Shown: positions 24,385 through 35,668 of the stretch, in pieces
Numbering within the stretch: position 1 is the first letter of the stretch
Layout of the letters: every line of letters starts with the position of its first letter
Assembly (NCBI GenBank): GCA_001004345.1
Contig: LCQW01000016.1
Coordinates: 1-35,668, forward strand
Direction of reading: 5' to 3'
Source: Candidatus Kaiserbacteria bacterium GW2011_GWA2_52_12
GTDB lineage: Bacteria; Patescibacteriota; Minisyncoccia; Phycocordibacterales; UBA2100
DNA length: 35,668 bases
Notes under the pieces: generated by a model
Seen by the model: the letters and a program-made list of their open reading frames with translations, nothing else
The model's database searches: none
Told to the model about the DNA's origin: nothing
Program-made: the position numbers and the translations under genes

Positions 24385-26139
24385 ATGAAAACGATCTATA
24401 TTCAGGCAGGTATTTTTGTGGCCGCACTCGTCATGGTAGCAGCCGTAGCCGGTTTCGTTGTGGCATCTGAAGCTGACATACAATACCCCGTGCCGGAGCT
24501 CGGCAATTGTGCGGATAAAGACGCTTGCAAAGCGTATTGTGACACATCTGCTCATATGAGCGCATGCATTTCTTTTGCCGAAAAAAATCAACTGATGTCA
24601 CTCGAGGAGATCAATTCCGCCAAAAAATTTATGGAGAACGGCTCGAAAGGCCCCGGCGACTGCACCGGCAAGGATTCGTGCGAAACATACTGCAACGACA
24701 TAAGCCATATAGATGAATGTGTCGCGTATGCCGAACAAACAGGCATCATGTCGCCGCAGGATCTGGCGGAAGCAAAGATGGTCCAATCCGCCATTTCAAG
24801 AGGTGTGAAGCCGCCACCGTGCAAGAACAAAAAGCAGTGCGATGCGTATTGCGAAGATCCCGCCAACATGAAGGTGTGCATAGCATTCGGCGAGGAAGCG
24901 GGATTCTTGAAGGGAGAGGAATTGAATCAAGCTAAAAAAATGCTGACCGCGATAGATAACGGCGCTACACCGCCGCCATGCAAAGGCAAAGAAGCATGCG
25001 ATGCGTACTGTTCGGCACCGGAGAACATGGAGGTGTGCATGAATTTCGCGAAAGCGGCCGGATTTATGTCCCCGGAAGAGGCGGCAAATTCTGAAAAAAT
25101 GCTGAACGCTATACGACAGGGAGTAAAACCGCCGGCCTGCAAGGGCGATGCAGAATGTCGCACCTTCTGTTCCCAAAAAGAACACGTTGAAGAATGCATC
25201 GCCTTTTCGGTCGCAGCGGGAATGATGTCGGAAAAAGACGCGCAGATGATGAGAGAGACGGGGGGAGTAGGGCCCGGCGGCTGTTCGAGCAAAGAAGAAT
25301 GCGAGGCATTTTGCGGTACGCCGGAGAATCAAAATGCGTGCGAGGATTTCGGAAGAGAGCACGGGATGATGCCGCCCGAAGGTTCTGGTCCACAGGGATC
25401 CGGTGAGCAAGGACCGGGCGGAAGACAAGGGCCGACGACGGGACCGGGAGGATGTAAGGGACCAGAAGAGTGCCGAGCGTTCTGTGGTAAACCTAAAAAT
25501 CAGCAAGCGTGCGCTGAATTCGGCAGACAAAACGGCGCGCCACCGCAAGGACAATCGCAAAACGGCGTTCCACCACAACAGCAGGGTATGCTGCAACGAT
25601 CGGAACCCGGCGATTCAAGAATGACGGGACCGGGCGGCTGTTCGGGTAGGGAAGAGTGTCAAGCGTTCTGTAGTCAATCCGAGAACCAGCAAACATGCGC
25701 GCAATTCGGACGCCAAAATGGCGATAGAACACCACAGGGAGATGGACAACCGCCTCAATCGGGAATGTATCAGCAACAACCACCGCAGCAGCGGGATGGA
25801 GCATATCAGCAGATGCCGCAGCAAAGAGAAATGGGGCAACCACCGCCATTCGGCACATATGAGCAGATGCCGCAGCAAGGACAAATACAACTTCAGCCGC
25901 GACAAGAGATGCAGCAACAGGGGGAGTATCCGCAATTGCCCCCGGGAGATTATCCTCCTCCGCCGACAGGTTCGTACATACCACCGACGGGTTCATATGA
26001 ACAAATACCTCAAGAACCTATTCAGCAGATGGCTCCGCAACAAGAGATGATGCAGCTGCTCCCGTCTACGAGCTTGTCTTCGATGCGTTTCGTCGCCGCT
26101 GTTTCCGCCATTGTCGCGCAACTGTTTCGTGGATTCTAA
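24385..26139 (+). CDS. Cys-rich tandem-repeat surface protein with Pro/Gln-rich tail
   Basis: A 584-residue exported or membrane-anchored protein. An N-terminal hydrophobic segment (about 7-28) is followed by eight repeats of about 45-50 residues between residues 42 and 440. Each has exactly four Cys with spacing C-x5-C-x3-C-x8-C, e.g. CADKDACKAYC then 8 residues and Cys, followed by FA/FG and an M-S-x-E-E helix. The first four repeats have long helices (LNQAKKMLTAI-type) and the last four shorten and gain Gly/Pro/Gln. The tail (about 445-584) is rich in QQ, PP and TGSY repeats and ends in a hydrophobic stretch (RFVAAVSAIVAQLF). Thirty-two Cys in pairs suggest disulphides outside the cell or metal binding. 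The pattern is known from CPR genomes as an uncharacterised protein; a wall-spanning or adhesive role is inference. Confidence 0.85.
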   Translation: MKTIYIQAGIFVAALVMVAAVAGFVVASEADIQYPVPELGNCADKDACKAYCDTSAHMSACISFAEKNQLMSLEEINSAKKFMENGSKGPGDCTGKDSCETYCNDISHIDECVAYAEQTGIMSPQDLAEAKMVQSAISRGVKPPPCKNKKQCDAYCEDPANMKVCIAFGEEAGFLKGEELNQAKKMLTAIDNGATPPPCKGKEACDAYCSAPENMEVCMNFAKAAGFMSPEEAANSEKMLNAIRQGVKPPACKGDAECRTFCSQKEHVEECIAFSVAAGMMSEKDAQMMRETGGVGPGGCSSKEECEAFCGTPENQNACEDFGREHGMMPPEGSGPQGSGEQGPGGRQGPTTGPGGCKGPEECRAFCGKPKNQQACAEFGRQNGAPPQGQSQNGVPPQQQGMLQRSEPGDSRMTGPGGCSGREECQAFCSQSENQQTCAQFGRQNGDRTPQGDGQPPQSGMYQQQPPQQRDGAYQQMPQQREMGQPPPFGTYEQMPQQGQIQLQPRQEMQQQGEYPQLPPGDYPPPPTGSYIPPTGSYEQIPQEPIQQMAPQQEMMQLLPSTSLSSMRFVAAVSAIVAQLFRGF

Positions 26140-26763: not shown

Positions 26764-27213
26764 ATGGAGAAATATCGAAGCTTGGATCAGCCCTATGTTC
26801 AATGGATAATCAAGGAGTATCAGTACTGGACTTTGCTACTGAATGACGACCAGCGATACCTTGGTCGCGCGTATGTATGGCTAGTGCGCGAGGGCGGGAT
26901 GCAGCGATTCTCAGAAATTACCGACGTGGAATATACAGAGCTTCGAATCATCATGTGCGAATACGAGAACGCTCTCAAAGAATTGTGGAATCCCGACTTT
27001 ATGAATTATGCGTGGCTTGCTAATCTCATCAGTGAACACGGCGGACACGGACACCTGCATCTCATTCCGCGATATCAAGATTCGCGCACATTCGCAGGTA
27101 TTGATTTTGTTGACGGAAGGTGGGGTAAGAATTTTTCTCCACACGAAACGTTCAAGCCATCCGAAGAAATTCTCATTCAGCTTCGCGACGTATTGAAAGG
27201 AACCATGCGCTAA
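26764..27213 (+). CDS. HIT-family protein (histidine-triad nucleotide hydrolase/transferase)
   Basis: A 149-residue protein. The histidine triad is GHGHLHLIPRY with His95-x-His97-x-His99; the central His would be the nucleophile acting on nucleoside phosphates. The N-terminal part (YWTLLLNDDQRYLGRAYVWLVREG) is the usual HIT strand pattern where the nucleotide base is held. NYAWLANLISEHGGHGHLHLIPRY is close to the family core. The C-terminal helix is short. The natural substrate (Ap4A-type or other nucleotide) cannot be decided. A perfect -10 element just before the ATG suggests leaderless translation. Confidence 0.87.
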   Translation: MEKYRSLDQPYVQWIIKEYQYWTLLLNDDQRYLGRAYVWLVREGGMQRFSEITDVEYTELRIIMCEYENALKELWNPDFMNYAWLANLISEHGGHGHLHLIPRYQDSRTFAGIDFVDGRWGKNFSPHETFKPSEEILIQLRDVLKGTMR

Positions 27214-27497
27214 ATCTAAGCTCGCCCTGCTCAACGATTTTCGAACTTTTGACTGGGCTGAGGAGTACAAATATCCTACCGTGGTTTTAGACCAGATGAA
27301 AGGATTGCTGGCCAAGTACGAGAACCTGTAACCCCTGATTTCCCACTTGGTTGCCCTTGTGGCGAGCTTTGTACCGAGAGTAAGAGTTTGCCACCAGTTG
27401 AACCCGGTCCGAGCCGTAAAACCAAATTTGAGAGCGTGGGACGATTTGCTTAACTCGAGCAATGTTAAGCAAAGTACACCAAGTCATAATTGCTTAA
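27214..27497. other. Gap with an ORF remnant and a 10-bp inverted repeat
   Basis: No complete gene is supported. 27218-27331 (plus) encodes an open C-terminal fragment (LALLNDFRTFDWAEEYKY, then LLAKYENL and stop) without its own start, possibly the end of a lost gene. TTTGCTTAAC (27445-27454) and GTTAAGCAAA (27464-27473) form a perfect hairpin, and GCTTAACT recurs at 27492-27499. The region borders the defence island and may be an old insertion junction. Confidence 0.4.
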
Positions 27498-27674
27498 CTA
27501 AAGACTTTCCTCGATCTCAACGGCGTCGTCTTCGTCCACGCCTAAATCTTCCATGATCTCCTGAACACGTTCGGCCGTGTCCTTATCAAGGTCATGACTT
27601 TCCATAAGCTCCTTAACATCTTCGTCGGGAGCTTCTTCGGCTGGTTCGTTTTTAATTGGATCGTTGATATCCAT
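27498..27674 (-). CDS. 58-residue acidic protein downstream of the Avs-like gene
   Basis: Not recognised by name. ATG 27674 to TAG 27498 encodes MDINDPIKNEPAEEAPDEDV, then two similar helical units, LMESHDLDKDTAERVQEI and MEDLGVDEDDAVEIEE. About 40 per cent of residues are Asp or Glu. The repeat of (L-D-x-D-x-A-E-x-V / V-D-E-D-D-A-V-E-I) suggests a helix-turn-helix hairpin of UBA-like size, as in acidic small proteins seen in other CPR genomes. It starts 12 bases after the stop of the 1954-residue gene and has no promoter of its own in that space, so they should be co-transcribed. A regulator, inhibitor or DNA-mimic role is only a hypothesis. Confidence 0.72.
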   Translation of the reverse strand: MDINDPIKNEPAEEAPDEDVKELMESHDLDKDTAERVQEIMEDLGVDEDDAVEIEESL

Positions 27675-27686
27675 TGGGAGTGGTGA

Positions 27687-30600
27687 TCAAATAATAATAT
27701 TGCTTACATTTAATAACTTTGTTTCCTTATATTTTTTAACTTCGTCATGGCTATACTGTCTTGAACGGTAGGTGCTTTTCAATAAGTAGCCAAGCCGGAG
27801 ATTATCACCACTAAGCCAGCTGTTTAAGAAATCTTGATCTAAAGTCAAAGACTGTCCGTGTGGGAGTGGCATATTTCGATCGTATCTTTCTTTTAATCCC
27901 TCGAGCCAGTCTTCGTACGTTGCCACTATTCGTTCATCTTTATTTTTTAGTTGCCATTTATTTTTGCCTAGTTCAATTTTTAATTCCTGTGAAAGTGAAT
28001 GATTTAAATTGAATGCCATATCGTAATCTCGAAAATACTGCCAAAGTGCAATACAGAGATCACGATCACGGGCAACTATCGGGTAAATTACAATATCCTT
28101 AATGCGAATGCCTTCGCTTCCTACCGGCAGATGGTTTTCTCTATCTTCAAGAAAGTTAAATGGTCTATTCGTTCGTGAAGGAATAGTAACTAGGGTTGGA
28201 GAGTAAGCAATTTCTTCTGCAACTTCCTCTGGTGTTGGCATCTCTGAGCCAACGACTTTATAACCAAAAGCTACTAGCAGGAAGGAATGCATCGGATCGT
28301 CTACCCATCCGTTTGCAGTTTGAATAGCTCCCTCCGCGGCTACCAATACTTTCCCATCCGAATTTTTAATCAAGTCTTCCGGAGAATTCTCAAAATAAAT
28401 GGTTGTTAGCGGATCATCTTTTTTGGTATCTAGAGTAGAGATAGGTGCTAGTTTGGGCCACCAATCCGGAGCACGGTTTAGTAGAATCTTCCATTTTGAT
28501 AATTCAATAGGCAGGGTCGCATAAGCATACTCAAGATAAAAATCTTTAGGAATGTCGCCATTTTGATAGAAATGTTGCAGAACCCTCAAAAATGCTGATC
28601 TGTAGACTTCACTTATTTTTGAGGAGAAACCCAGTAAAAATTCATCATGCTCACTACGAGCATAGTAATAAACCTGATTCGAGTTTAGCTGGATTCCGGT
28701 ATCTCTTATTATGTTATCCGCAGTGAAAACCCATTGCTGGATGAATTGCTTTCGTGAACGCCGTTCAATTTCTTCGGCTCTTTGCATATAAATGGGAGCA
28801 AGAAAAGTCTTGATGTATTTTGCAAAAAATGGATTCGATGAATACCCAGTTGGTACAAGCTCGATATCGATCGGTGAGGGTAGTTCCGGTTTATCTTGAG
28901 TCGTTAGGAGAGTTAATTCATCGAATAGTTTTTCTATGACTTCAGAGTTAATCGAAACAGCTTTTGCTAAAGTCTTTATATCTATATATTTCAGATCATT
29001 GGGATTTCCAATAATAGAAAAAGCTTTTATTATCGGGAGAAACCCTATGGCTACCGCAGTTTCCAGCCGTTGTTCCTCAATCCAAGATAATAAAATCTTA
29101 AGCACATCTTCTTTTTTTGTGCTCGAACAGAGCAGATAAGCCAAGGCGGTAGCCGCCCTTTCTCGGACTAAAGGACTTGGCCAGATCAGTCTTTGAATCA
29201 AAATATCTAAAATATTAACTTCCGATCGACTTTCTGACCATTCAGGCAGTGGGATATTTGAGTCGGTTACAAGCGATTTGGCAAAACAAACGCTCGCCTC
29301 AGTTATGGATTCCGCTTTTGCCGAATCACCAAATAAAAGCAGATACTCAACTCCTCTAGATAAAGGCACATGGTAATCTGTGCTTTTCTGGAAAAATTCC
29401 AAATAACGTCTCGGGTACTTTTCTTTAATAAATTGCCACCTTTTTTCAGCCTTCTTTTTATCAGTCCAATATCGTTGCCATCCATGATCATTGATTTGAG
29501 CCTTGCACAACATATCAAAAGCGGTTCCATTATCAAATTCAAACGCCAAGGGGTACAAAGTATCAAGAAGTTCGCCTGATATAGCTTGTACGCCGAATTT
29601 ATCAATAATCTGTTTTAGAGTATTGTAAATTTTCTCCTTACCACTTTTATCGAGCCAGTATCCGATCCACCCTATTAAATAATTATTCCATTCCCATCTG
29701 TTCTCAAAATTTGTATCTAGGTGTTCGAGTAAATGTTCGGGATCAATTTTTGAGTAATCTTGTGTCGGTTTTTCTATCCCTGTATAAGAACTTCCTTTTT
29801 CAGTAGGAAAATTAATTTGGCCAAGATAGGATTGGATTTTTTCGAGTGCCGTTGAGGCATCGGGATTGCTTTGAGCTATTGTTTTTAGTTCTAAAAAAGC
29901 ATCTTTTTCTACGGCGGTACTTGCTAAAGCAATAGCCTCCTCTTTAGAAAAAGAAAGAGACTTAATCACATACTTAAATAAATCTTCGGCATGATACAGT
30001 TCTTCTTTATCAGCGGAGTGATAATAGTATTTACGCAGTAACGCCTGATCTTGCGTAGCCAAAAGGTCGGCCAGTTCATATGGTAAATGGTTTGTTTCGT
30101 CGCCGTCGGTATACTCTCCGACACTTTCAATTAAAGGGATAATTCTACTTGTCCAGTCATCAATTTTTGTTTTCTCTATCCCTGATTTAGCGCAAAATTC
30201 TATTGCTTCAAGAACATCGAATAAATATGTGTCCTTGTGATACCCGTACCCAAGAAGATTATCAGAGGCCTTTTTCAAAAGGGAATGAGATAACTCTGTC
30301 TCCCCGTATAAGCGAGTAATTTTTGAAATAGTACTATAGTCTCGAGCTCTATCGGGGAAATAATTTACAGTTTTTGATAAAACATCAATATCTTCGTTTT
30401 TAATTTTTTCATACACGTCCCGTGCCAAAAGTGGCTGATAGGCTTCGAGCGTTAAAGATGTCAGATCACTCTTACTAAAGAAAGGTGGATTTTTAGTAAT
30501 AGCTACGTAGTCCGCCAGGGTAATTTCTTGACCATTACCGAAATATTCCTTGAGGACAATGATGTCTTCTAAGATTGCTTTGACAGAATCGCTAAACGCG

Positions 30601-33551
30601 CTTTGAAGACCTAAAATATCTCGATCTTCATGCCATTTCAATATATCTAAGTCAGCCCAATAGCTAAATAAAGCTCCGTAATTGATTTTAGATTCTCGTA
30701 TACCTGTACTAACGTATAAACTTGCTCGGAATAAACCAGTCATTGCCCTTGCAGACCAAGAGCTTGGAGCCTTTACGATCCATTCTTCTACATCTTTTTG
30801 TTTACCGGCAATACCATAAAGTATGCCGATGAGAAAATTGTCATAGTAAAACCCTCTCCACTTTGCTCGCTCTTCTGAGTCGTGTTCTCTGATCTTGTCC
30901 GGGAAAATATCGTATTCGGGAAGTAATGGTAGATCAAATTGGCTACCCTTTATGGCTTTAAATAGCGAACAAATTAGTGGTAAATCTGGGCTACTATTCA
31001 AGTAAGTAGAAATATCATCACCTTTGTTTTTAAAACCATACCTTGCACACTCTACTAGCACGGCTTGTTTTTCTGTTCCCGTAAGATCGAGTTCAAATAA
31101 TTTGGTGATCTTTTCCTTTTGTCCAAGTGCAAACAGTTGACGTGAGTAAATACCAAATAAAAATTGTGTAATATTTAGGTCCCGAAACTGAATTATGTAC
31201 TTATAAATATTTTCTGTTTTATGGGTCCGATCATAAGGTAGTACGTTAAGAAGCGCGGCTGTCGCACTTGGAATTGAATTCTGACGATACTCCTGTCTAC
31301 TCAACCTCTCAATCAATATTTCGTTAATTTCTTCCACCACCATATCTTTACCAGTAGCGTTGGCCGTACTTGCAAGTTCAGGAAGCAAGGTTGATGGCAA
31401 AGATTCGAAATCAAGATAATCAAAGACGTTAGGGTTCCGCTGAAGAGCTTCCTTCCATACAAGCTCTGTTGCTTCTTCAACAAAATCTTTTGAGTTTAGG
31501 TAGTACGTATGTAGATAGGAAATTTGTAGCCCTTTTCCAAAATCTTCTTTCTCGCAGGCAACTCTTGCGGCTAATTTCATCTGCTTAGAAATTTGACTGG
31601 AATTAGATGGATAGCAAATAGCATTTATAAGCCATTCCCGATCTATCTCAAGAATCGGATTACTATTGCCAAGCTCATGTTCTATTATTCTTAGCTCTGC
31701 CCACTTTAAATATTCATGACTTGATTGTTCCAGCCATTTTTTGATGTTTGTTTTTATTACAATTCTTTGTTGGGTCATTTCCGGCCGGTCCCTCAAAAAT
31801 AGCTCGAAGCTGTTGTGGTACACGCTCATCTGATCACGAAGATTTTTAGAAATCAGATGAGAAATTTGTTTGAAACCATTTGTCACATCTTCTGGGCTAG
31901 TCGTAGAAAAAGAGATGCATTCAATAAGCTGTCTCTCCGTGAAAAGAAAGTTAACACTAGCCATTGCAAGCAGGAGCTCCTTTGCTTTATCTGAAATCTG
32001 GTTCCAAAGAGAATCGTAATATTTTTCAATCCCAGCACCGTATGATATGAGATCATTGCACGAATAATCTGTAACAAGACTATTTCCGGAAATATTCTTT
32101 AACTGTTGTAAACTATAACGCAAATGCAGAGGATTACCTTCGGTGATTGAAAACAACTTTTCTACCAGATTTTTAAATTGCTCAGCTTGATCTGGTAAAT
32201 GTAAGCCTATTTTATTTGCTTGGATGAGTTTTGAAACAGCATCTTTGCTTAGACCCTTTATTTCTGTCCATTTAGTCTCAGGACATTTATCAAAAACGAT
32301 TTGTGGCAGATGTGGCTTGGCAACTGCCTGCATACCAATAATGATCCAGACACCTGGCTGTGGTAGGCATATTTCCTTTAAAAAACTCTCTAATTCATTT
32401 TTTTCACCATAGCGCAAAACATGGTCGAGTCCATCAATGATTACGATGAGGGACTTACTCTCTGAATTGAGTTTTGTAGCTATTGTTGTAATAAATTCTC
32501 CAACAGGTATTTCTTTTGAGTTCTTATTCGCCAAATCCCCAAGCTCCTCTTTGTGTGATTTTAATTGTGACTTGATAGCCTCAATGACTCGTTCCGCGTT
32601 CAGGCGTTCTTGAGGGTTAGAATCTTCAGGAGATATGTGGTAATGATGTTTTATTGAGATTAACTTTTTTTCGCTCAACTCTTTATCAAGTTTTGATAAA
32701 TACACGCTTTTACCGACACCGGGTTTACCAAAAATTACCTTTATACCGCCTTCAGGCTTTTGCAGGTCAGATAAAATTGACTGATGGGTATGATCATCAA
32801 AAAACTCAAAATCAGCTGGAATATCAAACTGTTCTTCCAGTGGCCGCGGTAGATCAAATTCACACCACCTGCGAAGGGTTTCGATATCCAACTGCCTAGT
32901 ATTCTGTTGTCGGCATTCCTTGTCTATTTCGTGATATAGATTAGTAACACCGGATTCAGTTGCACTTAAATTTTCATAGAAGCTTTTTCTTATCGTAGCT
33001 TCTAAGTCATCTCCGGAAAGATTTTCTTGATTGAACCGAAAATGAAGTGTCTGAAAGATACGAACAGCGTTATCTTCGTTTCCAATTTCTACGATAATTC
33101 GATTATAAAGATCAAGAGTCTCCGTTTTAATTCTTTGGATATCAACTAGTTCGTTGCTCAGATATTTAGTAATATCATCTTCAGCTTCTCCGTTTGTAAT
33201 AAAAAACGCCTCCTTAGTTTTATCGAGGCGAGTCGCTAAAGAATTTGCCCACTTTTTTATAAGAGAAGTGCCACCGCTTCTCTCTGTATTTAAAAGACTG
33301 TTCCAAGTCCATTTATTTGCAGGGTCTTGTCTATGCTTTGTCTGATAGAAATGATAAAAATCGTCTGAATCAAGACAGACAATATCATCGAGATAGAACT
33401 TGCTAGGGTCTTCTTCGTCAGGACACGTTTCAAACTGAATCCACTTATATTTTTCCGGGGCAATAAGCCACTCACCGCACAACCTTAAACCCCAGAAATT
33501 CTGGTAAGCAAATCCGCTTCTGATAGAACTTGTGCGATTAGTGTGTGACAT
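27687..33551 (-). CDS. Giant Cap4-like nuclease-STAND NTPase (Avs-like antiphage protein), 1954 residues
   Basis: Predicted innate-immunity sensor. Residues 10-235 resemble the Cap4/DUF4297 endonuclease: RSGFAYQNFWGLRLC, then Glu41, Asp55-Asp56 (YLDDIV) and Gln70-x-Lys72 (YQTKH), a PD-(D/E)xK-type set. Residues about 245-520 form a STAND/NACHT-type ATPase: Walker A GKPGVGKS (275-282) and Walker B LIVIIDGLDHV (Asp373, Asp376), then a winged-helix-like section. Residues about 600-1750 are a long alpha-helical repeat region (TPR/HEAT-like), followed by a distinct mixed C-terminal domain. This nuclease-STAND-long repeat order and size match the Avs family, in which the repeats bind a phage protein (terminase or portal) and the nuclease then degrades DNA. 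Coding bias is AT-richer than neighbours; probably acquired. It is intact, between an acidic gene and a restriction locus. Confidence 0.85.
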   Translation of the reverse strand: MSHTNRTSSIRSGFAYQNFWGLRLCGEWLIAPEKYKWIQFETCPDEEDPSKFYLDDIVCLDSDDFYHFYQTKHRQDPANKWTWNSLLNTERSGGTSLIKKWANSLATRLDKTKEAFFITNGEAEDDITKYLSNELVDIQRIKTETLDLYNRIIVEIGNEDNAVRIFQTLHFRFNQENLSGDDLEATIRKSFYENLSATESGVTNLYHEIDKECRQQNTRQLDIETLRRWCEFDLPRPLEEQFDIPADFEFFDDHTHQSILSDLQKPEGGIKVIFGKPGVGKSVYLSKLDKELSEKKLISIKHHYHISPEDSNPQERLNAERVIEAIKSQLKSHKEELGDLANKNSKEIPVGEFITTIATKLNSESKSLIVIIDGLDHVLRYGEKNELESFLKEICLPQPGVWIIIGMQAVAKPHLPQIVFDKCPETKWTEIKGLSKDAVSKLIQANKIGLHLPDQAEQFKNLVEKLFSITEGNPLHLRYSLQQLKNISGNSLVTDYSCNDLISYGAGIEKYYDSLWNQISDKAKELLLAMASVNFLFTERQLIECISFSTTSPEDVTNGFKQISHLISKNLRDQMSVYHNSFELFLRDRPEMTQQRIVIKTNIKKWLEQSSHEYLKWAELRIIEHELGNSNPILEIDREWLINAICYPSNSSQISKQMKLAARVACEKEDFGKGLQISYLHTYYLNSKDFVEEATELVWKEALQRNPNVFDYLDFESLPSTLLPELASTANATGKDMVVEEINEILIERLSRQEYRQNSIPSATAALLNVLPYDRTHKTENIYKYIIQFRDLNITQFLFGIYSRQLFALGQKEKITKLFELDLTGTEKQAVLVECARYGFKNKGDDISTYLNSSPDLPLICSLFKAIKGSQFDLPLLPEYDIFPDKIREHDSEERAKWRGFYYDNFLIGILYGIAGKQKDVEEWIVKAPSSWSARAMTGLFRASLYVSTGIRESKINYGALFSYWADLDILKWHEDRDILGLQSAFSDSVKAILEDIIVLKEYFGNGQEITLADYVAITKNPPFFSKSDLTSLTLEAYQPLLARDVYEKIKNEDIDVLSKTVNYFPDRARDYSTISKITRLYGETELSHSLLKKASDNLLGYGYHKDTYLFDVLEAIEFCAKSGIEKTKIDDWTSRIIPLIESVGEYTDGDETNHLPYELADLLATQDQALLRKYYYHSADKEELYHAEDLFKYVIKSLSFSKEEAIALASTAVEKDAFLELKTIAQSNPDASTALEKIQSYLGQINFPTEKGSSYTGIEKPTQDYSKIDPEHLLEHLDTNFENRWEWNNYLIGWIGYWLDKSGKEKIYNTLKQIIDKFGVQAISGELLDTLYPLAFEFDNGTAFDMLCKAQINDHGWQRYWTDKKKAEKRWQFIKEKYPRRYLEFFQKSTDYHVPLSRGVEYLLLFGDSAKAESITEASVCFAKSLVTDSNIPLPEWSESRSEVNILDILIQRLIWPSPLVRERAATALAYLLCSSTKKEDVLKILLSWIEEQRLETAVAIGFLPIIKAFSIIGNPNDLKYIDIKTLAKAVSINSEVIEKLFDELTLLTTQDKPELPSPIDIELVPTGYSSNPFFAKYIKTFLAPIYMQRAEEIERRSRKQFIQQWVFTADNIIRDTGIQLNSNQVYYYARSEHDEFLLGFSSKISEVYRSAFLRVLQHFYQNGDIPKDFYLEYAYATLPIELSKWKILLNRAPDWWPKLAPISTLDTKKDDPLTTIYFENSPEDLIKNSDGKVLVAAEGAIQTANGWVDDPMHSFLLVAFGYKVVGSEMPTPEEVAEEIAYSPTLVTIPSRTNRPFNFLEDRENHLPVGSEGIRIKDIVIYPIVARDRDLCIALWQYFRDYDMAFNLNHSLSQELKIELGKNKWQLKNKDERIVATYEDWLEGLKERYDRNMPLPHGQSLTLDQDFLNSWLSGDNLRLGYLLKSTYRSRQYSHDEVKKYKETKLLNVSNIII

Positions 33552-33595: not shown

Positions 33596-34321
33596 TTAGT
33601 GCTTCCACTCCTCATGCGAAAGGACGAAGCGGTTCAGTTCGTCTTTTATGCTTCGCCACTTGGGGACGTTCTTCGTCATTAGACTGACAAATTTCTCTGT
33701 GTGTTTCTTTTCAATCAAATGCAAGAGCTCGTGGACGACAACATATTCCACGCAAGTGATCGGCTTCTTCACCAGCTCGAGGTTGATCAAAATGCGAGCA
33801 CGTTTGTGATTGCAGGTACCCCAACGGGTCTTCATCTGCTTTATCCCCCAGTAGCTCGTTTGCACGCCAATCTTTTTCTGCCACTTCGTTATCAAGTTTC
33901 CCACCACCGGATGCAACTGCTTGCGATACCACTCCGTTATTACCTCGTGCCTTTTTGCTATCGTGCTCTTTGGACGAACCTGTAAGATGATTTTGTTTTT
34001 GCCTTTCAAAAAGACGGCTGGTACATCATCCTTATAAACCAGCTCAAGACGATACCGCTTGCCAAAAAAGTAATGGCTTTCGCCGGAGACATAAGTACGC
34101 TTGGTCTGTCGTTCCTGTCCGGCAAATTTACCTTGCTGACGTTTAATCCATGGGAGCCGAGTAGCTATAAGAGTCCGGATAGCGTCGTCTTTCATATTCT
34201 CCGGAGAGGTTACCCTGACACGCCCGGCCGGTGGCAATACCGAGAGATGCAAATTCTTGATCGGCTTGCGGACGACCAAGACCTCGACACTTCCGAGTTG
34301 TAAATATGAATTAGTACTCAT
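33596..34321 (-). CDS. YgjP/DUF45-type M48-like metallopeptidase
   Basis: A 241-residue protein with the zincin motif VVVHELLHLIEKKH: His197-Glu198 and His201, with a third ligand probably in the following helix. The N-terminal half (VEVLVVRKPIKNLHLSVLPP, GRVRVTSPENM, LPWIKRQQGKF) and YWGIKQMKTRWGTCNHKRARILINLELV are characteristic of the YgjP-like DUF45 family. Such genes are frequently found directly downstream of hsdR in type I restriction loci, though their part in restriction is unknown. The start is ATG 34321, which overlaps the end of hsdR by 11 bases and implies translational coupling; an extension to 34342 is less likely. It lies 44 bases upstream of the Avs-like gene on the same strand. 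Confidence 0.9.
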   Translation of the reverse strand: MSTNSYLQLGSVEVLVVRKPIKNLHLSVLPPAGRVRVTSPENMKDDAIRTLIATRLPWIKRQQGKFAGQERQTKRTYVSGESHYFFGKRYRLELVYKDDVPAVFLKGKNKIILQVRPKSTIAKRHEVITEWYRKQLHPVVGNLITKWQKKIGVQTSYWGIKQMKTRWGTCNHKRARILINLELVKKPITCVEYVVVHELLHLIEKKHTEKFVSLMTKNVPKWRSIKDELNRFVLSHEEWKH

Positions 34322-35668
34322 TTTGATTCTTGATAATCTCAAAGAGATTTTTCAGCTCTTCGTCTGAAATATCCGGCAACGCCTTTTTGATTTCAATCTT
34401 GATTGCTCGCTCTTTCAGATGATTACCACGCCAGTCGGACTGTCTCGCGCCCAAGACCGCTTTGTCCACGACCAGAGCTTTTTCAACATCCTGTCCCAAG
34501 TTATCGTAGAGAGCACGCTTGGCCGATGTGTTAATTTCCAAGCCTACCGACTCATCCATCGGATTTTTTACTTTCTTGGACAAAGCCACGACCTGCTTGA
34601 GATATTCCTTATACTCCACGTCTGCCTGTTTTCGCTTCTTGACCAATTCATCCAAGAGCTCGGACATTCGCAAGTAATACTTCGGGTTAGTCGGCATTTC
34701 ATCAATGATCAGCTTGCGGACGTTGTTCTCAATCGTCTCCGCCATTGCATCCTGACTTTGTTTTATAGCGTCCGGCAATTCGTTAAGAGCGTCCTCACCC
34801 TTCTGCACAATCAGATCAACCAGCGTCATATCATCAAACGCTGAAAGCTTCTCGCTTTCTTTGGCTGTGATATAGCGGTCAATAAGCACGCGCATTGCTG
34901 GCTCGTATTTCTTGAGATCAATGTAATCACCACTGGCGAGTTTTACTTCCATTCGCACCCGCTCAAAGTGCCTGACCTCTCGCTCGATGGCCTGCGCTTG
35001 GTCTTTGGTATATCCGGCACTGGCCATGTCATTGGCGAGATCGGCATACGCTCGAAGCAAGTGACTAACTGTTTTATACAGCTTCACTCGCTTAACTTCG
35101 TTCTCCTTGAGTGAGTACGGATTTTCTACATCACCGCAGAAATAGCGAATGTAGGTGGCCGAGTCTTTTGGGGGAGATACCGGTTCGCATAAAGCTCGGA
35201 CGATTTCCAACGCCTCGTCCAAATCCTTTTTGCCTTCTTCCATCCGATCCTTCAAGAGGCCAAGTACATCCTCCTTATCAAAGCCCTCAAGAGCACCGGC
35301 GGTATAATCACCGACCGCTTGCTCAAGCTTTTTGAACAGGTCCCGATAGTCCACGATATAGCCGTACTCTTTGTCTTCGCCATCCAAACGATTTACACGG
35401 CAAATCGCTTGGAACAGCCCGTGATCCTGCATGTTTTTGTCGATGTAGAGATATGTCGCCGGTGGTGCATCAAAGCCGGTGAGCAATTTGTCCACCACAA
35501 TGAGAAGTTGCATCTGGCCGGGTTGCTCAATAAACTTCTTTTTGATTTCTTTCTCGAAATCCTCCGTGCTTTTGCCGTTGAGCATTTTCTGATAGACGGC
35601 ATACTCACGTGTGTCGGTAGAAAGCGCGCCGGGTTCATAGGAAGTTACGACAGCACACTTGGTAAAGC
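34311..35668 (-). CDS. hsdR: Type I restriction enzyme R subunit (HsdR), C-terminal part
   Basis: The last 451 residues of the restriction/translocase subunit; the gene runs off the window end with its frame open. The second RecA-like helicase domain is visible at the start: KCAVVTSYEPGA, then LLIVVDKLLTGFDAPPATYLYIDK (motif V) and GLFQAICRVNRLDGEDKEYGYIVDYRDLF (motif VI). This is followed by the long helical C-terminal region that contacts the methyltransferase (ERVRMEVKLASGDYIDLKKYEPAMR). The nuclease and first helicase domains, and hsdM and hsdS, must lie outside. HsdR cuts unmethylated foreign DNA after ATP-driven translocation. The product is not visibly damaged within the window. Confidence 0.95.
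   Translation of the reverse strand, partial: FTKCAVVTSYEPGALSTDTREYAVYQKMLNGKSTEDFEKEIKKKFIEQPGQMQLLIVVDKLLTGFDAPPATYLYIDKNMQDHGLFQAICRVNRLDGEDKEYGYIVDYRDLFKKLEQAVGDYTAGALEGFDKEDVLGLLKDRMEEGKKDLDEALEIVRALCEPVSPPKDSATYIRYFCGDVENPYSLKENEVKRVKLYKTVSHLLRAYADLANDMASAGYTKDQAQAIEREVRHFERVRMEVKLASGDYIDLKKYEPAMRVLIDRYITAKESEKLSAFDDMTLVDLIVQKGEDALNELPDAIKQSQDAMAETIENNVRKLIIDEMPTNPKYYLRMSELLDELVKKRKQADVEYKEYLKQVVALSKKVKNPMDESVGLEINTSAKRALYDNLGQDVEKALVVDKAVLGARQSDWRGNHLKERAIKIEIKKALPDISDEELKNLFEIIKNQNEY

Follow-up and report, generated by a model that had tools for sequence, protein, structure and literature searches.

The window analysed here, 35,668 nucleotides in length, makes up an entire contig in a Patescibacteria MAG of 0.92 Mb that is 91% complete. 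On its minus strand, a giant gene with an ATG start occupies positions 27687..33551 and encodes an intact open reading frame of 1954 aa, predicted to join a Cap4-type nuclease, a STAND NTPase and a solenoid. A preliminary description of this DNA had given these coordinates and this length, which stand, and had left the strand unstated; the plus strand of the interval is crowded with stop codons. It had also placed the gene in a CPR-type, reduced genome, in agreement with the genome size and with the phylum, which is the same as that of Patescibacteria group bacterium RA.bin39 (G161), the carrier of a closely similar copy. The 1954-aa protein matches Pfam NACHT over its cut-off (5.9e-8), and comparison of the window and G161 copies, 91% identical, gave a dS of 0.32, a dN of 0.04 and a dN/dS of 0.128. 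These two results argue against a chance reading frame, and the gene is under purifying selection (dN/dS 0.13). Upstream on the same strand lie a gene for a YgjP-like metallopeptidase (33596..34342; Pfam YgjP-like 4.4e-58), which is the final gene of a type I restriction-modification (R-M) operon, and the C-terminal part of the type I restriction gene hsdR (34311..35585; PADLOC REase_I 8.8e-155), truncated by the contig end. Downstream, a 58-aa acidic small ORF on the minus strand (27501..27674), with no Pfam match, lies within DNA shared with G161 and is 84-87% identical there, and the shared block is bordered by a conserved non-coding edge (about 27217-27503), which contains the palindrome TTTGCTTAAC-9-GTTAAGCAAA at 27445-27473 and also occurs, dispersed, in further genomes of that order.

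Using alignments of relatives, we built AlphaFold2 models of residues 1-1150 (49 rows, mean pLDDT 87.7) and residues 760-1954 (48 rows, mean pLDDT 90.4). Residues 1-240 (32832..33551, minus strand) were modelled as a PD-(D/E)xK nuclease domain with an alpha-beta-beta-beta-alpha-beta core, in which D55/D56 precede strand 2 and Q70xK72 closes strand 3. The best single-domain match in VIA was E. cloacae Cap4 (7yib, Z 17.4, rmsd 2.8 over 205 residues), and further matches were HerA-DUF4297 (Z 15.5), LmuA (9nxx, Z 14.5) and Hachiman (8zue, Z 12.1), so that the nuclease fold expected from the preliminary description is present. The Pfam model Cap4_nuclease (PF14130) stayed below threshold for the window protein (4.3e-4, 21.0 bits versus a cut-off of 26.2), and its best score in any family member was 5.5e-6. 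The CBASS effector Cap4 of E. cloacae, LmuA, HamA and HerA-DUF4297 have this same fold (Z 12-17) but respond to cyclic nucleotides or to partners that sense DNA; the nuclease of the window protein is instead linked to a STAND sensor.

Residues 241-700 (31452..32831, minus strand) form the STAND/NACHT NTPase with a winged-helix/arm region, covered by Pfam NACHT at 272-444 and by NCBIfam Avs1b at 263-597. Both Walker motifs, A at 275-282 (GKPGVGKS) and B at 371-378 (IIDGLDHV), are intact and, like E41, D55-D56 and Q70-x-K72, are as given previously. Residues 701-1725 (28377..31451, minus strand) were modelled as a helical-repeat solenoid, the presumed sensor, and residues 1726-1954 (27690..28376, minus strand) as a beta-rich domain with strands from residue ~1734, mostly at pLDDT >85, which is the least conserved part across the family. 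The models thus contain the more than 1000 residues of helical repeats and the distinct C-terminal domain that had been proposed, and together with Pfam NACHT they uphold the STAND assignment and the Avs-type domain order. An N-terminal effector domain, a STAND NTPase with both Walker motifs and a large C-terminal helical-repeat sensor, the general features of Avs/AVAST proteins, were all found, and the product is a protein of predicted nuclease, STAND and solenoid folds in an Avs-type architecture.

In Foldseek searches, SeAvs3 (8dgc) was the top match of both models, with E values of 1.1e-17 (residues 1-1150) and 1.2e-10 (residues 760-1954, covering most of the solenoid). The next different proteins scored 1.7e-7 (Avs4, first model) and 4e-3 (second model), and NLR/CED-4 ATPases followed for the first half. 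VIA aligned 990 residues of the first model with SeAvs3 at Z 21.9, with a large overall rmsd indicating that the domains are placed differently. For the second model 996 residues were aligned, matching 1-1190 of the model with 782-2072 of SeAvs3; other solenoids in the same list equalled the Z score of SeAvs3, but with far fewer residues or a much larger rmsd. The SeAvs3 fold was therefore found, colinear, along the entire length of the protein, and the likeness extends to the size (~2000 aa), the domain order and the Cap4-like nuclease, whereas sequence identity is only 11-13%. EcAvs4 (8dgf), the match next after SeAvs3, differs in its Mrr-type nuclease, and the family HMM found no match in the sequence of an Avs4-like protein. 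The regulator MalT ranked far below Avs3 in the structure comparisons. Sequence searches of the PDB with the protein and with a 10-sequence profile found no Avs protein; structure comparison alone found them.

No curated Avs model passed its cut-off in the PADLOC and NCBIfam scan. The nearest was Avs1b (AVAST type 1, NF041810), which matched residues 263-597 at 4.9e-10 and scored 37 bits, its cut-off being 1500; the Avs2-5 models gave no match, and NF041816 (Avs3a) found nothing in the window protein at E<=1. When the family HMM was run against fetched comparators, Avs1b scored 84.7 bits, an Avs3a protein (L098), identified as a SeAvs3 homologue by 3230 bits to 8dgc, scored 3.4 bits, and the others scored below 0. 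With hhalign, in which the comparators were single sequences and the values are hence lower bounds, the STAND region matched Avs1b with a probability of 99.7% and Avs3a with 0.1%, a weak match to Avs3a was seen for the nuclease domain (E 4.6e-5, prob 41), and a weak but colinear one for the C-terminal part (E 0.03). Neither the family HMM nor hhalign detected a sequence match between the solenoid and Avs3a, so the common fold is no proof of a common ligand. Judged from sequence, the ATPase is kin to Avs1b and not to Avs2-5, and the grouping with regulatory STAND proteins that would have spoken against the Avs reading was not seen. The preliminary description had assigned the gene to the Avs family, with SeAvs3 as the named example; this holds in that the protein appears to be an Avs-like nuclease STAND receptor, but not for membership of a named Avs type, and membership of Avs3 by sequence fails. 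Avs1b resembles the window protein in the STAND and winged-helix regions, which are homologous by sequence, and in length (1931 aa), but it bears an N-terminal trypsin-like protease that acts on a separate MBL nuclease (PMC12799240), whereas the window protein has a nuclease fused in cis and no protease. Correspondingly, residues 1-240 are Cap4-like and not trypsin-like, and no MBL gene was found among the scanned window proteins. The structural match to SeAvs3 and the STAND match to Avs1b together point to an Avs3 fold carrying an Avs1b-like ATPase.

Scanning 84,980 species genomes with a profile recovered 150 relatives, 80 of which were kept. They come from Pseudomonadota, Bacteroidota, Bacillota (Thermoanaerobacter), Nitrospirota, Ignavibacteriota, an archaeal MAG and several CPR lineages, with plasmid-borne members in Klebsiella and Serratia; E. 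coli carries the family in 4 of 5,426 genomes. A homologue from E. coli 1517k lies at NZ_CP054388.1, 1666037-1671805. The family is rare in Patescibacteria, with 2 of 380 sampled genomes carrying it, and is no peculiarity of CPR. Existing annotations call its members 'AAA family ATPase', 'NACHT domain-containing protein' or 'ATP-binding protein' and nothing more specific, and on the available sequences it is a broad family without an Avs type name in PADLOC 2.0, NCBIfam 2026 and PGAP. Among 60 full-length members, D56, Q70, K72 and Walker A are present in all, and D55 in 58; the invariance of D56/Q70/K72 is no artefact of the search, because the scan patterns lay within the ATPase. The Cap4 fold is thus accompanied by a conserved D..QxK signature. 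Of the catalytic set that had been listed, D56, Q70 and K72 are invariant, but E41 is not: it is kept in 44 members and replaced in 16 (Q in 13, D in 3). One viral-contig scan and a tblastn search of phage records returned no relative. Separately, a Parcubacteria S145 copy on a 6-kb contig (L019) shows 88-91% DNA identity to two Melioribacteraceae copies (L016/L020); L020 comes from the same sample as L019, and the high identity may reflect transfer or mis-binning.

The protein is divided at residue ~1440 in 23 of 59 analysed relatives, giving two overlapping genes of ~1450 and ~480 aa, so that the sensor of many relatives is spread over two genes, which also sets them apart from SeAvs3. Members of this split form occur in Roseibium and Cupriavidus, for example. 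In the window, the split point (residues ~1440-1445) corresponds to 29217..29234 on the minus strand, and in the model residue ~1440 lies in an inter-helix loop. The overlaps are mostly of the ATGA start/stop type, with the same relative frame in 22 of the 23, and on the tree the fused or split state changes 7 times, at least 5 of these forced by well-supported branches. Six loci that look like broken genes (L043, L057, L066, L069, L013, L054) were excluded. Assembly frameshifts were rejected as the source of the two-gene form, given the shared residue, the ATGA-type overlaps and the single frame; a programmed -1 frameshift is compatible with the frame, but canonical overlapping starts explain the arrangement better. 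A fixed split point makes the C-terminal quarter a separable subunit, whose translation is presumably coupled to that of the remainder. This natural one-gene/two-gene switch is a ready tool for separating sensor from effector. The second gene of two split members (L009 12467-13843, L010 12470-13846) is annotated 'multidrug DMT transporter permease', a name that is probably wrong, given that in the giant protein its homologous region is the C-terminal sensor half. In another Patescibacteria genome (G123), the gene L124 8633-12867, broken between two reading frames, combines an Avs4-type N-terminus (PADLOC Avs4, 118 bits) with a C-terminal part matching residues ~866-1196 of the family sensor (47 bits), which hints at sensor exchange between effector types.

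The giant gene has a GC content of 38% and a GC3 of 33%, versus 53% GC for window positions 1-27000 and a GC3 of 52-67% in neighbouring genes; by its composition it is a foreign gene, horizontally acquired. G161 belongs to another Patescibacteria class, and its copy, on a contig 52,818 long, shares 91.3% DNA identity beginning six bases before the ATG; similarity continues downstream in separate pieces to 27220, and none was found past that position. Upstream of the gene, G161 carries a DpnII-type R-M system, made up of DpnII and two methyltransferases, the first of them of the D12 type. A congener (G637) has a complete hsdM-hsdS-hsdR-ygjP operon followed by a GmrSD-type gene in the slot of the giant gene. 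This variable defence slot (L145 5371-8916) holds a gene for an Mrr_N/GmrSD_N/HEPN-like protein together with an ORF of 127 aa whose CxxC motifs are HNH-like. R-M or other defence genes adjoin the family gene in the window, in G161 and in many relatives, in counts that have no background control. For Patescibacteria, this suggests that immune genes travel between classes as cargo beside restriction systems. A groundwater survey found that CPR genomes have fewer defence systems each, yet at higher density (PMC12259885); an Avs-like gene in CPR is therefore notable, though defence in general has precedent there. The strong phage pressure that had been deduced is not demonstrated by one foreign gene making up 0.6% of the genome.

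Taken together, the top match to SeAvs3, the Cap4 fold, the invariant D56/Q70/K72, the Avs1b-kin ATPase, the adjoining R-M and defence genes, the dN/dS of 0.13 and the foreign GC make it likely, with good confidence, that the protein is an Avs-like antiphage immune receptor, in which a phage protein would activate the Cap4-type nuclease and lead to abortive infection; the failure of every curated Avs model, the solenoid without sequence match to Avs3a and the replacement of E41 in 16 of 60 members weigh against it. At rest, the protein would be a monomer with nucleotide in the STAND domain. A phage protein would then fill the helical solenoid, which in many relatives would be assembled from two polypeptides. 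The large terminase subunit is probably this ligand by analogy with both nearest relatives, Avs1 being activated by phage terminase (PMC12799240) and SeAvs3 having been solved bound to terminase according to the title of 8dgc. Binding may free the STAND domain for oligomerisation, as in SeAvs3, and bring the N-terminal nuclease domains together, which would cleave the DNA of phage and host alike; death or arrest of the infected cell would follow ahead of phage release. Such a receptor would extend the antiviral STAND receptors by a widespread clade, and its E. coli and Klebsiella members open the family to testing in laboratory strains. Tentatively, and at somewhat less than even chances, we further propose an unrecognised Avs type of recombined effector, ATPase and sensor (an Avs3-fold frame with an Avs1b-like ATPase), in which the sensor can come as a separable, translationally coupled C-terminal subunit, with sensors swapped between nuclease types tracking the same phage ligand and with Patescibacteria trading such genes through variable slots beside R-M operons.

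The end-to-end fold match to SeAvs3 and the weak hhalign matches of the nuclease and C-terminal part to Avs3a would also suit a diverged SeAvs3 orthologue that shares its terminase ligand and represents nothing of a new kind. We consider this unlikely, as both the bit scores and the STAND alignment favour Avs1b over Avs3a, NF041816 found no match, and the two-gene form was absent among the Avs3a examples fetched. It is similarly improbable that the solenoid watches a host factor instead of directly binding a phage structural protein, in the manner of a guard-type bNACHT receptor: typical bNACHTs are much smaller than the 1954-aa window protein, its sensor has the Avs3 fold, and the cross-phylum transfer argues against reliance on a single host partner, even though NACHT is its best Pfam match. 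In bNACHT25 and bNACHT32 (clade 6), too, NACHT carries a PD-(D/E)XK DNase, and host DnaJ is required (PMC12169576). Theirs is an NCH1 C-terminus with sensing via DnaJ; no NCH1 match appeared among the Pfam hits of the window protein, from a library that may lack such a model.

STAND proteins include regulators such as MalT, and several family members are plasmid-borne, as a non-defence regulator or a defence solely against plasmids or other mobile elements would allow; the invariant nuclease residues, the R-M adjacency, the patchy transfer and the low rank of MalT make either role very unlikely. Least credible is a mis-binned contig or a decaying gene. The GC difference, the window being one entire contig and the possibly mis-binned L019 copy could be read in that way, but the gene runs on into its flanks without interruption, homologues of HsdR/YgjP and of the gene at 26764-27213 occur in congeners, and G161, an independent CPR genome, holds its copy with common downstream DNA and a dN/dS of 0.13.

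Beside the receptor gene, the non-coding edge of the shared block belongs to a ~165-base element with a near-perfect palindrome (ATTTGCTTAACTT-5-AAGTTAAGCAAAT in L141) that recurs in several genomes of the order (window 27217-27503; L139 9596-9758; L140 2862-3118; L141 9456-9632; L143 373-494; L144 24-74; L003 10589-10842), often at contig ends, as repeats are. Its appearance suggests a recombination site or an operator; the exact form of the loxP-like palindrome was not found in viral contigs. An ORF of ~106 aa (MFLLAM..DDIEAILATAKNIRMPHRRGSFNPL..), with no Pfam match, stands beside the same element in three genomes (L003 10230-10553; L141 9685-10002; L143 81-278). The 58-aa acidic protein (window 27501-27674; L003 10062-10235; L141 10003-10089) is 84-100% conserved across distant Patescibacteria. 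Elsewhere in the window, positions 24385-26139 encode a secreted-looking protein of 584 aa, without a confident Pfam match, that contains roughly ten repeats rich in Cys (CKGKEACDAYC..) and a tail rich in Gln and Pro.
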